DNA of 34,945 bases, from positions 1 through 34,945 of IMG/VR virus record IMGVR_UViG_3300021952_000018, one strand, 5' to 3'. Shown in pieces: positions 1,840-26,325 of the stretch (within the stretch, counting starts at the first letter, position 1; each line of letters opens with the position of its first letter). The translations under genes were made by a program, and so were the position numbers. The stretch comes from a virus. The notes under the pieces were generated by a model. That model saw only the letters and a list, made by a program, of their open reading frames with translations. It was not told the DNA's origin and made no database searches.

Positions 1840-4079
1840 TGGCTATTACAGTCAAGCATACCAAGGTATCAACCATACCTGATGGGGATGACTCATCCTT
1901 AATTAGACCTTCCGACTGGAATGACAATCACCAATTGACTGGTGTTGGCACAATGGCTGAACAAAACGCCAATAGTATTGCTATTACTGGCGGCACAATG
2001 TCTGGCGTTACGATAACTGGTTATATTCCGACAACCGAAAAAGGCGTTGCCAATGGTGTAGCAACTCTTGATTCTGGTGGCACAGTCCCTTTATCGCAAC
2101 TTCCTCCGCTAGGTGATTTAAACTACCAAGGTGCTTGGAACGCAAACACAAATACCCCAACACTTACATCTTCAGTTGGAACGAAGGGTTATTACTATGT
2201 TGTAAGCGTTGCAGGCACAACTAATTTGAACGGCATCACCGATTGGCAAGTAGGCGATTGGGCGGTGTTTAACGGTTCTGTATGGCAGAAAATAGACAAT
2301 ACAGATGCAGTAACTAGCGTAAACGGATATACCGGCGCAGTCGTATTGACCCAACCAGATATTGCTGGAACAGTCCCAACATCACGCACAATTAGCACAG
2401 GCACAGGTTTAACTGGTGGCGGTGATTTATCTGCTAATCGCACAATCTCATTTAGCACCGCAGCGGTAGGCACATGGGCAGCAACTCCATCTTCTGCCAA
2501 CCTAGCTGCAGCAATGACAGACGAAACAGGTTCTGGAAGCCTAGTATTTGGCACAGGGCCAACATTGTCAGCCCCAGTAATTGATGGCGCAAATCCTTAC
2601 ATTCAGTTTAATAATGGTTCAGCCGTAACCGTTGCCGCTGGCAAACTTTGGTATGACGGAAGCACAGGAAGCTGGAACGCTGGCATGGGTGGTGGCAATA
2701 TCACCCAGCAAATTGGTGAAGAACTTTTTTACTACGGCAAAGCATCATCCGCTATTACTGATAGCCCATTGCAACTTGTTTATCAAACAGGAACAGTAGG
2801 CGCAAGTGGTGTAATTACTTTTGCCCCTACTATTGCAGGCATTACAGACGGCAATTTGATTCTTGGTGTTGCAACAGAAAACATTGCTTTAAATGCTACT
2901 GGTCGAATTACTACTTTTGGTGTAGTTCACGGAATTACAACGAATGGCACAGCATACGGCGAAACATGGGCTGATGGCGACATCATTTGGTATAACCCTG
3001 TAACCGGAAACCCAACCAAAAATAAACCTTCCGCACCTGGCATTAAGGTTCAAATCGGAACAATTATTAATGCTGGTTCTGGCGGTTCAGGTTCTATTGC
3101 TGTAGAAATTAATCATGGTTCTGTATTGGGTGGCACAGACTCAAATGTGCAATTAACCAGCGCATCTAATGGCAATATTCTTACTTATGATGGCACAAAC
3201 AGCTATTGGCGCAATACCGATTTAACCGCAGGCACAGGCATTTCTGTAAGCAAATCTGCTACCGGTGTATTGACTGTAACCAATACAAGTCCATCATCCG
3301 GTGGCACAGTAACCTCAATTACTGCCGGAACAGGCCTTACAGGTGGCACAATTACATCGTCAGGCACGATTGCAATTGATTCCACAGTAGCCACATTGAC
3401 CGGTATTCAAACCCTGACAAATAAAACCATATCAGGCGCAAGCAATACCCTGTCTAATATTGGCAATTCAAGCCTTACAAACTCCAGCATTACCATCAAC
3501 GGTTCTGCAATTAGTTTGGGCGGTTCTGTCAGCGTAGGCACAGTTACAAGCGTTAGTGGAACAGCACCGGTTAGCGTAGCAACAGGCACAAGCACTCCAG
3601 TTATTAGCATGGCTGCCGCGAATGGCACAACCAACGGTTATTTGACTTCAACCGATTGGACTACATTTAACAGCAAACAACCAGCAGGCACTTATGTAAC
3701 CTCTGTAAGTGGCACTACAGGCCGTATTACATCAAGCGGTGGCACAACCCCAGCCATTGACCTTGCAAGTGGTGTAGCAACGCCTGGAACTACTGGTTCG
3801 TCTAGTTTGATTCCTGTAGTCACAATTGACACCTATGGGCGCGTTACCAGTATTACAACCGCATCAAATCCACAAGGAACAGTTACCAGCGTAGGCGGCA
3901 CAGGAACAGTATCAGGGATTACCCTATCTGGCACAGTCACATCATCTGGCAACTTGACCCTTGGTGGAACGCTTGATTTGTCTAGTCCTCCGGCAATTGG
4001 TGGAACTGCTGCCAATACGATTACCGGCACGACCATCACAGCAACCAAATTTGTAGGCGTTTCAGGCGGCACATTCTAA
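1839..4079 (+). CDS. Gly/Thr/Ser-rich tail-fibre-like virion protein
   Basis: A 746-residue protein of low-complexity Gly, Thr, Ser and Val sequence. The N-terminal part (about 1-170) has the non-repetitive look of phage fibre attachment regions, including a stretch around 90-150 with YYYVVSVAGTT and WQVGDWAVFNGSVWQKI, common in tail-fibre and collar proteins. The rest repeats short turns such as GTVTSV and GTGLTGG, suggesting a beta-helical or trimeric fibre. No enzymatic motif or S74 chaperone domain was seen. The start is fixed by a one-base overlap with the portal stop (TAATG). Its place between portal and scaffold is unusual for the main receptor fibre, so it may be an accessory head or neck fibre. 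Confidence 0.65.
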   Translation: MAITVKHTKVSTIPDGDDSSLIRPSDWNDNHQLTGVGTMAEQNANSIAITGGTMSGVTITGYIPTTEKGVANGVATLDSGGTVPLSQLPPLGDLNYQGAWNANTNTPTLTSSVGTKGYYYVVSVAGTTNLNGITDWQVGDWAVFNGSVWQKIDNTDAVTSVNGYTGAVVLTQPDIAGTVPTSRTISTGTGLTGGGDLSANRTISFSTAAVGTWAATPSSANLAAAMTDETGSGSLVFGTGPTLSAPVIDGANPYIQFNNGSAVTVAAGKLWYDGSTGSWNAGMGGGNITQQIGEELFYYGKASSAITDSPLQLVYQTGTVGASGVITFAPTIAGITDGNLILGVATENIALNATGRITTFGVVHGITTNGTAYGETWADGDIIWYNPVTGNPTKNKPSAPGIKVQIGTIINAGSGGSGSIAVEINHGSVLGGTDSNVQLTSASNGNILTYDGTNSYWRNTDLTAGTGISVSKSATGVLTVTNTSPSSGGTVTSITAGTGLTGGTITSSGTIAIDSTVATLTGIQTLTNKTISGASNTLSNIGNSSLTNSSITINGSAISLGGSVSVGTVTSVSGTAPVSVATGTSTPVISMAAANGTTNGYLTSTDWTTFNSKQPAGTYVTSVSGTTGRITSSGGTTPAIDLASGVATPGTTGSSSLIPVVTIDTYGRVTSITTASNPQGTVTSVGGTGTVSGITLSGTVTSSGNLTLGGTLDLSSPPAIGGTAANTITGTTITATKFVGVSGGTF

Positions 4080-22464: not shown

Positions 22465-22474
22465 AAATCCCCTT

Positions 22475-22551
22475 AAAAAATAAGCAGGTCAAGGTCTTTT
22501 TAGTTTGAAATCCCTGCGGGCCATAAAGCTGAATAGTGTCAATGACCTGCT
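22475..22551 (-). terminator. Leader stem with U-tract: attenuator or small-RNA end
   Basis: On the minus strand AGCAGGTCA (22551-22543) pairs perfectly with TGACCTGCT (22491-22483) and is followed at once by TATTTTTT (22482-22475). The 51-base interior contains a small CCCGCAGGG hairpin. The layout is that of an intrinsic terminator with a long insert, between the promoter and the first gene. It could release a leader RNA of about 100 bases or act as a conditional attenuator. The pairing is seen directly; the function is inferred. Confidence 0.55.
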
Positions 22552-22584
22552 ATGAAAGTAATTTATTCCGAATTACAAGGGGTT

Positions 22585-22613
22585 TATATAGGGACAAACC
22601 CTATGTTTGTATA
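22585..22613 (-). promoter_or_regulatory. Leftward early promoter with operator palindrome
   Basis: On the minus strand TATACA (22613-22608), 17 bases, then TATATA (22590-22585) give a plausible sigma70-type promoter. Between and overlapping them is a perfect palindrome ATAGGG-N5-CCCTAT (22588-22604). The same TAGGG-N5-CCCTATA arrangement occurs at 32623-32641 before the other leftward early block, so it is probably the site of a common regulator. The transcript would start near 22578. Confidence 0.66.
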
Positions 22614-22657
22614 AAAACAACAGGGCTGTATTTGGCAGTTGCTATCAATGGGTCAGA

Positions 22658-22817
22658 AAGCCGCAAAATTACCCAATTACTGCATCCTACATTGGCGGCT
22701 TAACGCCCAAATAGGGTGGCTTACTCGTTTCTTTACACTTTCAGCCGTTGTAAGGTGAGGGGCAGAACACTCCGTGATGTGTGTGGTCAGGCAAGGGGAA
22801 AGCCTGTCTGCCGCCTC
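22658..22817 (+). ncRNA. Structured gene-free region with three-way junction (candidate RNA)
   Basis: No convincing ORF lies in 22465-22821. This part is full of complementary segments: 22658-22664 with 22695-22701 (seven pairs); 22704-22708 with 22714-22718; 22731-22737 with 22749-22755; and a junction closed by ten pairs, 22757-22766 with 22807-22817 (G22813 bulged), which holds hairpins 22767-22770/22781-22784 and 22788-22792/22802-22806. Two helices need a G-U pair that works only on the + strand, weakly favouring that orientation. Its GC content is above that of its surroundings. It lies just downstream of the exonuclease gene on the other strand. It matches no RNA family I recognise. 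Confidence 0.5.
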
Positions 22818-22821
22818 TTGG

Positions 22822-24760: not shown

Positions 24761-24810
24761 GTTACACTTTAACATAACTTAACCGCATTGTGCAAATATC
24801 TTTTTAAGCG

Positions 24811-24840
24811 TTGTATTTATGCAATTTGTTGTGTTAAGAT
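24811..24840 (+). promoter_or_regulatory. Promoter of the HTH gene, giving a nearly leaderless mRNA
   Basis: TTGTAT (24811-24816), 18 bases, then TAAGAT (24835-24840) form a weak sigma70-type promoter. The predicted start is at about 24847, only a few bases before the ATG at 24850, and no Shine-Dalgarno is present. Leaderless mRNA is known for lambda-type cI. Confidence 0.5.
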
Positions 24841-24849
24841 GACTACATT

Positions 24850-25128
24850 ATGACATTAAAACTAACCGAACACGCATTACTTCAACTGTTGGGTGGCACT
24901 AATAAAGTCGCCAGAATGTGCGAAGTTGAACCGGCAGCAGTTTCTCAATGGAAAAAAAACGGCATACCTAGAGAACAATTACTGTTTTTAGCCGCCAGAA
25001 TTGAAAAAGAATCTCATGGGCTTGTAACCCGCAAAGATTTGTTTCCAAACAACTTTTGGCTGGTATGGCCTGAACTGTTGGAAAAACACAACGCTTTTGG
25101 CTTGCAAGACCCTATAGACGAGGAGTAA
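24850..25128 (+). CDS. Cro/CI-type helix-turn-helix regulator (YdaS-like)
   Basis: A 92-residue DNA-binding protein. Residues about 5-50 form the HTH: LTEHALLQLLGGTNKVARMC, then EVEPAAVSQWKKNGIP with recognition helix AAVSQWKK. GGxNKVAxxCxVxPxAVSQWKKxGIP is typical of Cro-like/YdaS proteins, followed by LFLAARIEKESHGLVTRKDLFP. There is no peptidase domain, so it is a Cro-like or short repressor. It is divergent from the recombination unit with a perfect palindrome between them, its likely operator. The mRNA appears nearly leaderless. The structured region follows its stop. Confidence 0.82.
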   Translation: MTLKLTEHALLQLLGGTNKVARMCEVEPAAVSQWKKNGIPREQLLFLAARIEKESHGLVTRKDLFPNNFWLVWPELLEKHNAFGLQDPIDEE

Positions 25129-25143
25129 TATCCTAGTCCGCAC

Positions 25144-25383
25144 TCCAGGCGATACAAAGGGCTTAAATGGGCCGCGTGGAAGAAAACATAGGCAGATGAC
25201 TCACCCCATCATAGCCTCGCAGCGTTAAATGGCGACTGCACAAGATTTTAGGGACAAGGTGATACAAGACCTTTAATCGAATGAACATTACCTCTGGGAG
25301 GACTGGTTGGCATACATCTTTGCCGATGGGTCGCGTTGATAGTCGCCTATCACCCTTGGTCAAGTTGTATGCAAAAATACAAC
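25144..25383 (+). ncRNA. Structured gene-free region with repeated TTAAATGG loops (candidate RNA)
   Basis: The 334 bases between 25128 and 25463 hold no convincing gene but many hairpins: 25144-25147/25177-25180 enclosing GGC-TTAAATGG-GCC (25160-25162/25171-25173); 25190-25193 and 25196-25199 with 25209-25212 and 25214-25217; GCAGCG/CG-A-CTGC (25219-25239) again with loop TTAAATGG; 25256-25260/25269-25273; CCTC-TGG-GAGG (25291-25301); 25309-25312/25321-25324; GGG..TGATAG-TCGC-CTATCA-CCC (25328-25355); and GTTGTAT/ATACAAC (25364-25383). Identical loops on two different stems suggest a protein- or RNA-binding motif. It could be a leader of the exported-protein gene or a separate RNA. The strand is assigned from flanking + genes only. 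Confidence 0.5.
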
Positions 25384-25462
25384 ATAAGGGAAAATACTTA
25401 GTGACACAGACAAAAAACGATAAGAAACTGACATTGTTGTTTAACTAAAAGGGGAATTAAAA

Positions 25463-25777
25463 ATGAAAGACTTTATCGGTAGTTGTTTATTGGGCGCGTT
25501 ATTAGGTTGCTTGTTTGCTTATGGCGTGCCAGCAAAAGCGCAGACCGTGCAATTGACAGACAGTCAAGGCTACAGCGGGGGAACTGTGCAAATCAACGGC
25601 AATACGGCCCAGTTTGTAAATCCACAAGGAATTACTACACAAACCGCAACGCTATATCCTAATCAAGTGGTTATCAATAATCCTGGAATATCAAATCAAG
25701 CCATCGTTATTGGTCAGCCTAGCTACTTTGTTCCACCAAGTCCACCAACACCGGCATCACCAAGGGTATTGCAATAA
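25463..25777 (+). CDS. Small exported protein with signal peptide
   Basis: A 104-residue protein. Residues 1-26 are a signal peptide (basic K2, hydrophobic FIGSCLLGALLGCLFAYGV, and an AKA site before Gln27); LLGC at 13-16 might be read as a lipobox, but the AKA-Q site looks better. The mature part is Gln, Asn, Thr and Val rich with short beta repeats (GTVQINGNTAQFVNPQG; QVVINNPGISNQAIVIGQP) and a Pro-rich end. It should be periplasmic. It has an AAGGGGAA ribosome site and follows the structured region. An early secreted phage protein suggests action on the host envelope, such as blocking superinfection, but this is a guess. Confidence 0.66.
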   Translation: MKDFIGSCLLGALLGCLFAYGVPAKAQTVQLTDSQGYSGGTVQINGNTAQFVNPQGITTQTATLYPNQVVINNPGISNQAIVIGQPSYFVPPSPPTPASPRVLQ

Positions 25778-25947: not shown

Positions 25948-26325
25948 ATGTTTGATGATTTCTGGGATTTATACCCAAAAAAAGTAGCAAAAGGCGCAGC
26001 TATTAAAGCCTGGCAAAAACTGAACAAAGCAGAACAATCAGAAGTAATTAAGGCTTTGCCAAACCATTTAAAATATTGGAAAGTTAAAAGCACAGATAAG
26101 GACTACATACCATATCCTGCCACTTGGCTTAACCAAATGCGCTATCTTGACGAGTTAGACTTTGAAGAAAGCAAACCCAAGAAACCGCCAATACCTTGGT
26201 ATTCTACGGAAGAATTGACACTTGCAAAAGCTAGAGAACTTGGAATTACTCCTTACGCCGGAGAATCCTACGCCCAACTTCGACAGAGAATTTCTACACA
26301 AATCAGCCGTCAGGCAACTGTGTAA
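25948..26325 (+). CDS. Replication-type protein (DnaT/O C-terminal-like)
   Basis: A 125-residue protein with the pattern FWDLYPKKVAKGAAIKAWQK, then ALPNHLKY and IPYPATWLNQMRYLDEL. This resembles the C-terminal module of phage replication-initiation and primosome proteins (FWxxYPxKxxKxxAxKAW...PATWLNxxRWxD). Here it stands without the usual N-terminal DNA-binding domain. Its end (ARELGITPYAGESYAQLRQRI) also occurs in phage helicase-loader-type proteins. It may recruit host replication factors. The ribosome site is TTAAGGGGTT. A second frame overlaps its 3' end. Confidence 0.7.
   Translation: MFDDFWDLYPKKVAKGAAIKAWQKLNKAEQSEVIKALPNHLKYWKVKSTDKDYIPYPATWLNQMRYLDELDFEESKPKKPPIPWYSTEELTLAKARELGITPYAGESYAQLRQRISTQISRQATV

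Follow-up and report, generated by a model that had tools for sequence, protein, structure and literature searches.

To our knowledge, RNA-based antitermination is known mainly from phage HK022 and its kin. The put RNAs are about 70 nt in length and are built of two stem-loops, putL and putR being alike. In HK022 one put RNA is located in each early operon, and putR lies about 270 nt behind PR (PMC9378689). Large, highly structured and non-coding RNAs of phages and mobile elements have been described as well, among them GOLLD, ROOL and other ornate RNAs (PMC12286853). A further RNA, RF02932 (Betaproteobacteria-1), is classed by Rfam as an sRNA gene, and our literature search on it found no paper. 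In the present study we have analysed a window of 34,945 nt of viral DNA (positions 1 to 34,945 of the IMG/VR record IMGVR_UViG_3300021952_000018), in which a structured RNA, here called type A, follows a cro-like gene. Comparison of related sequences establishes its predicted fold on the plus strand, shows that its position after cro is fixed and documents its modular replacement by RF02932; its action as an RNA in the early operon is what we infer. Our reading as a whole, held at somewhat less than even confidence, is that type A represents a new phage RNA family in the rightward early transcript after cro, acting as RNA, with put-like action in cis as the mechanism we favour.

The RNA is found in a non-coding gap of 334 nt (25129-25462) between the stop codon of an HTH gene and a small ORF (25463-25777), whose product is a small exported protein encoded on the same strand as the RNA. 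The original prediction placed at least eight local helices in this gap, behind a repressor-like gene. Both points were borne out, with at least eight helices supported and the gene being of Cro type in an early operon. The spacing between the cro-like stop codon and the RNA core is 9 nt, and the remainder of the gap 3' of the element (25370-25462) comprises a hairpin together with an operator-like sequence motif and a region of ribosome binding. The features are as follows (all on the plus strand):

24850..25128, +, Cro-like HTH gene of 92 aa (PHROG 35 transcriptional repressor, E 5e-13; Pfam YdaS_toxin, E 3e-8, and P22_Cro, E 2e-6)
25138..25369, +, type A structured RNA, core CCGCACTCC to CCCTTGG..AAGTTGTA (alignment A2, model R1 with 235 bits for the window, covariation)
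25139..25151, +, P1 hairpin CGC-ACTCCAG-GCG, whose loop-closing pair 25141-25149 covaries from CG to UA, GC and GU
25144..25180, +, pseudoknot 1, P1 loop TCCA (25144-47) with TGGA (25177-80), CC/GG becoming GAG/CTC or GGG/CCC in other lineages
25160..25173, +, stem 1 GGC/GCC (25160-62/25171-73) with loop 1 (25163-25170), paired in 44/44 members with nine stem sequences
25167..25189, +, pseudoknot 2, loop 1 ATG (25167-69) with CAT (25187-89), the pair 25169-25187 being C-G in 28 members and G-C in 14, with one exception
25190..25217, +, P2 (25190-93/25214-17) with inner P2b (25196-98/25207-09) and loop CACCC, all three P2b pairs changing on both sides
25219..25239, +, stem 2 GCAGCG/CG-A-CTGC with bulged A25235 and loop 2 (25225-25232), paired in 44/44 with all six pairs compensated
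25228..25289, +, predicted pseudoknot 3, loop 2 AATG (25228-31) with CATT (25286-89), complementary and invariant in 44/44
25246..25276, +, P5 arm, with covariation at 25247-25275, 25250-25272 and 25251-25271
25291..25332, +, motif XCUYNG-GX'AGGA-CUR and P6/P6b stem (25301-11/25322-32), with tertiary pairs 25291-25298 (AU 28, UA 11, CG 4 in A2) and 25294-25305 (UA 23, CG 21 in A2)
25350..25359, +, conserved 3' segment TCACCCTTGG (alignment A2)
25364..25405, +, downstream short hairpin (25364-83) and operator-like motif ATAAGGGAAAATACTTAGTGACA, with related TAGGG-N5-CCCTA palindromes at 22602 (-) and 32640 (-)

Over the whole window, ARAGORN reported no tRNA or tmRNA gene and Rfam 15 gave no match at the curated cut-off; at relaxed thresholds (E up to 10) nothing relevant to the type A RNA appeared. 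Group I intron, RNase P and 6S RNA were dropped by eye, their core motifs being absent and no Rfam match being found. Type A is a new RNA family, absent from Rfam 15. GOLLD and ROOL resemble it in being highly structured phage RNAs without coding function and differ from it in being much larger, type A furthermore having no Rfam match.

The family was assembled from several searches. Querying IMG/VR with the HTH protein gave 73 loci, 19 of which carry a similar stretch behind cro, and a scan with a pattern of conserved segments gave about 84 viral loci. This first pattern required TTAAATGG together with ACAAGA; a second one used only ATCGA..GA.CATTA.C...G..AGGA, without TTAAATGG, and brought in 11 further members, to which model R1 assigns 179-251 bits. 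Type A RNA, of about 235 nt, is now represented at 111 IMG/VR-derived or phage loci with 77 distinct sequences, some of the loci being duplicates of one contig or near-identical; the phages carrying it are mainly freshwater. A BLAST search of the gap against phages returned a single true relative, the diverged type A copy of MW202674.1. The two minus-strand hypothetical proteins annotated over that copy are probably spurious, there being no conserved reading frame. T1-like BLAST matches, confined to about 55 nt of AT-rich sequence at the 3' end (25424-25481; E 9e-3 or worse), were judged to be chance. The first pattern matched 14 times in 84,980 species genomes, in all cases by chance on inspection, and type A RNA was not seen in these bacterial genomes. 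Models R1 and RF02932 gave no match in 369 genomes from the class of an arbitrary gammaproteobacterial handle, a search that was run without a positive control and carries little weight.

The decisive support for the fold is comparative. In alignment A2, which comprises 44 non-redundant type A members and was built without structure, a 45-pair structure gives standard pairs in 94.1% of the paired cells, against 75.9 +/- 0.6% for shuffled alignments and 32-44% for slid partners. Change on both sides is seen in 33 of the 45 pairs (23.3 in the shuffles), and the covariation score is 0.488 versus 0.171 +/- 0.008 when shuffled. Cells changed on both sides number 362, although kinship of the members means that cell counts overstate the number of events; it is this kinship that the slid controls address. 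The original prediction called for a covariance check across relatives, and here stems 1 and 2 form standard pairs in every one of the 44 members and are kept by compensatory change. Stem 1 occurs as CAC/GTG, GGG/CCC, AAC/GTT, TGG/CCA, CGG/CCG, ATC/GAT, GGC/GCC, TAC/GTA and AGC/GCT, and stem 2 in ten different sequences. Pseudoknot 1 takes the form CTTCTC/GAGAAAG in the independently found L171, L174, L175 and L182. Pseudoknot 3 is predicted only, since both of its strands are invariant and covariation is therefore impossible. A long-range pairing of GGTGA (25258-62, in the P5 arm) with TCACC (25350-54) is suggestive; it is partly consistent across an alignment that is uneven there. In L063 and L101 the CACCC of the P2b loop and that of the 3' strand have both become CACTC, with GAGTGG as a possible partner, which perhaps points to two mutually exclusive pairings, a switch. 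On these comparisons the predicted type A fold is a compact domain in which at least eight helices are tied together by two pseudoknots with covariation and, probably, by one more.

The starting observation was a pair of stems, at 25160-25173 and 25219-25239, each presenting the 8-nt loop TTAAATGG, and they lie exactly where they had been placed. It had been argued that chance does not readily give such a repeat. This holds for the stem-closed form, two copies of an 8-nt loop, each with no fewer than two closing pairs, occurring in 1.5% of dinucleotide shuffles of the gap, but not for the bare repeated 8-mer, which is ordinary (54% of the shuffles). Across the family the two loops behave differently. 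Loop 2 is TTAAATGG in 44/44 members, whereas loop 1 has this sequence in the window only (1/44); elsewhere it is YTAAATCG (30), CTACATGG (7), or CTAAATGG, CTAGATGG and CTAACTGG (2 each), and in a later independent set some members have CTGAATGG or CTGACTGG. The invariance of loop 2 is biological and not the result of hit selection, because it is kept in all 11 members found without requiring TTAAATGG, among which ACAAGA varies. As the loops do not stay identical across relatives, the view of them as a shared motif for a binding protein or for loop binding fails. A search of the phage for complements of CCATTTAA, advised with the original prediction, gave 7 sites including the two loops themselves (expected 3.1), a number reached by 6 of 100 shuffles; with no clear excess of complements, CCATTTAA was rejected as a target motif. 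Loop-loop pairing had also been envisaged, and this was right in kind, though there is no common repeated loop motif. In 42 of 43 members the variable base 25169 of loop 1, a C or a G, changes in concert with 25187 (G or C), which means that loop 1 pairs with the downstream strand 25187-25189, while loop 2 is complementary to CATT at 25286-25289. Both loops would accordingly be parts of pseudoknots, that of loop 2 being a prediction.

The strand on which the structure acts can be read from the same data. The plus strand of the gap folds with a z of -2.6, which none of 100 shuffles equals, and the minus strand (z +0.8) folds no better than shuffles. The type A alignment contains 121 G-U cells against 16 A-C cells, which indicates that the folded molecule is the plus-strand RNA and not a DNA structure. 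A cruciform or an origin-like element, which the replication-initiator-like gene nearby at 25948 might suggest, is for this reason very improbable. No conserved reading frame is present, the longest stop-free stretch covering 38-93% of the length on either strand and lengths being free modulo 3. The original observation is confirmed and strengthened; with compensatory changes beyond the relatedness controls and strand-specific G-U pairs, we consider it practically certain that type A is a conserved structured RNA.

The position of the RNA is as constant as its fold. At 123/123 loci with both parts, an RNA of type A or of a second type, B, follows the cro-like gene, in the same orientation, at a distance of 4-1460 nt, a linkage that is partly by construction as the type B loci were found via cro. 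Type B occupies the slot of type A in 35 relatives, and the four of these loci tested by cmscan gave RF02932 with 85-95 bits (cut-off 49.4). The two types are found at 111 and 35 loci, respectively, and at none together. They switch even where the preceding cro genes encode proteins with up to 98% identity; in L036 and L029 the DNA is nearly identical until the cro stop codon and then wholly different. Types A and B are alike in their slot and in the cro family ahead of it, in size (RF02932 comes to about 220 nt once a 3' part outside the model is counted), and in having a CUUAG-GUAGG-CUAGG-like hairpin and a 3' CCTYTTGG (CCYTTGG). Their 5' halves, however, are unalignable, the hairpin plans differ and they never co-occur. 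The window does not reach the RF02932 gathering cut-off of 49.4 bits or give a match even at E up to 10, and model R1 finds no match among the type B loci (best E 0.8), so that no common covariance model joins the two. By predicted fold and by position, type A is a relative in kind of RF02932 and not a member of it. At the type B loci (L006, L012, L014, L022 and about 30 others) the conserved RNA runs about 100 nt past the 3' end of the Rfam model, and this extension contains the hairpin ACCUAG-GUAGG-CUAGGU. A third type of structured RNA was seen in the same slot in L043 (3042-3266) and L034 (1640-1910), with GATGGGCTAGAGG..GTTGGTC.TTCTATGG in common; that of L043 has no Rfam match.

Since close relatives carry a different RNA in the same place, the slot appears to house an exchangeable module of RNA control among the early genes. 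Tentatively, the unrelated classes that fill it (type A, RF02932 and the L034/L043 type) may be exchangeable regulators of early transcription, an RNA counterpart, large and varied, of the lambdoid N/nut and HK022 put systems. The same comparison bears on the suggestion that the RNA is a cis-regulatory leader, riboswitch-like or protein-sensing, of the next gene, here that of the small exported protein. The RNA does lie upstream of that gene on the same strand; but the following gene changes between relatives, which makes a gene-specific leader less likely, about 95 nt including the operator-like motif separate the RNA from the gene at 25463, and RF02932 replaces type A ahead of similar downstream leaders. 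We therefore regard a leader function, which the original prediction had entertained, as unlikely.

Turning to put-like action, the rightward early transcript would include the type A RNA, read right after cro, and the folded RNA would act in cis on the transcribing RNA polymerase, comparable to HK022 put, so that early transcription would then read on into the downstream genes. Like put, type A is an RNA element in a phage early operon; its distance from the presumed cro promoter, about 290-300 nt, is similar to the roughly 270 nt of putR, a structured RNA is found in both early operons of the window, and the coupling to the cro strand and the replacement as a module also recall how putL and putR are arranged. 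Nevertheless, at about 235 nt with at least eight helices and several pseudoknots, it bears no structural likeness to the short, two-stem-loop put RNAs in size or plan. Unlike putL and putR, the two early-operon RNAs of the window are dissimilar, and about 2 kb of its operon precede the left one. The sequence upstream of the type A RNA shows no recognisable sigma-70 promoter, so the start of the cro transcript, and with it the distance given above, is assumed. Terminator-like sites downstream of the RNA are no commoner than chance. Upstream sequence is at hand for 75 distinct type A RNAs; 32 of them start no more than about 24 nt from the stop codon of an ORF, and 40 stand directly behind a terminator-like, very stable long hairpin with a T-run, whereas a simple antiterminator should come before it. 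Weighing these points, we consider that put-like action of type A in cis is possible but doubtful. The long hairpin (L021, L056, L086, L088, L106, L111, L117, L119 and others) is located about 100 nt upstream of the RNA, its 95-nt MFE being mostly -30 to -45 kcal/mol and its T-run ending about 10-20 nt before the RNA.

The compact fold and sharp ends of type A, together with its position between a stop codon or terminator-like hairpin on one side and an operator-like motif on the other, also suit a phage RNA acting in trans, released from the cro transcript at its 3' end or made from its own start and binding a host or phage protein or base pairing; RF02932, in the same slot, is after all filed as an sRNA gene. 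Such an RNA would have no need of the strict same-strand coupling to cro (123/123), and neither a promoter nor a terminator of its own is recognised; we hold trans action to be about as probable as the put-like one. The many invariant unpaired bases and tertiary covariations, together with the at least two, probably three, unrelated RNAs swapping in one slot, could further be taken to indicate that the RNA has a catalytic or processing role, as a ribozyme would, or serves as a decoy in counter-defence, the turnover of RNA types then reflecting an arms race. No known ribozyme class is matched, and we hold this to be quite unlikely.

The left early operon contains a gap of its own (22465-22821, minus strand) behind the nuclease gene, with two conserved structured non-coding stretches, GAGGCGG..CCGCCTC and GGGCGTTAAGCC..TACAGCCC, which are mosaic across relatives; it is probably the first structured region of the original prediction. 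A tRNA-like sequence (by eye tRNA-Asn, with the CTGTTAATC anticodon loop) replaces the first hairpin of this element in L027 (about 2610-2700) and L038 (about 2850-2950, minus strand). The operator-like motif downstream of type A, ATAAGGGAAAATACTTAGTGACA, has an inverted match in the region upstream of cro (24810-24823). Operator- or promoter-like TAGGG-N5-CCCTA sites at 22602 (-), 25387 (+, imperfect) and 32640 (-) precede, at a distance of about 70-140 nt, genes whose ribosome-binding site reads AAGGGGAWTT, and two of these three motifs are directly 3' of a structured RNA.

Type A is a well-supported addition to the RNA families. Its tertiary covariation is unusually rich, which makes it a good subject for RNA structure work, and the comparison places the orphan Rfam RNA RF02932 as one of several RNAs that swap into a single phage early-operon position. 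If the reading of this position as an exchangeable slot is true, that orphan family would gain a function; and if the slot RNAs act on RNA polymerase, RNA-based antitermination would be far more widespread and varied than thought.
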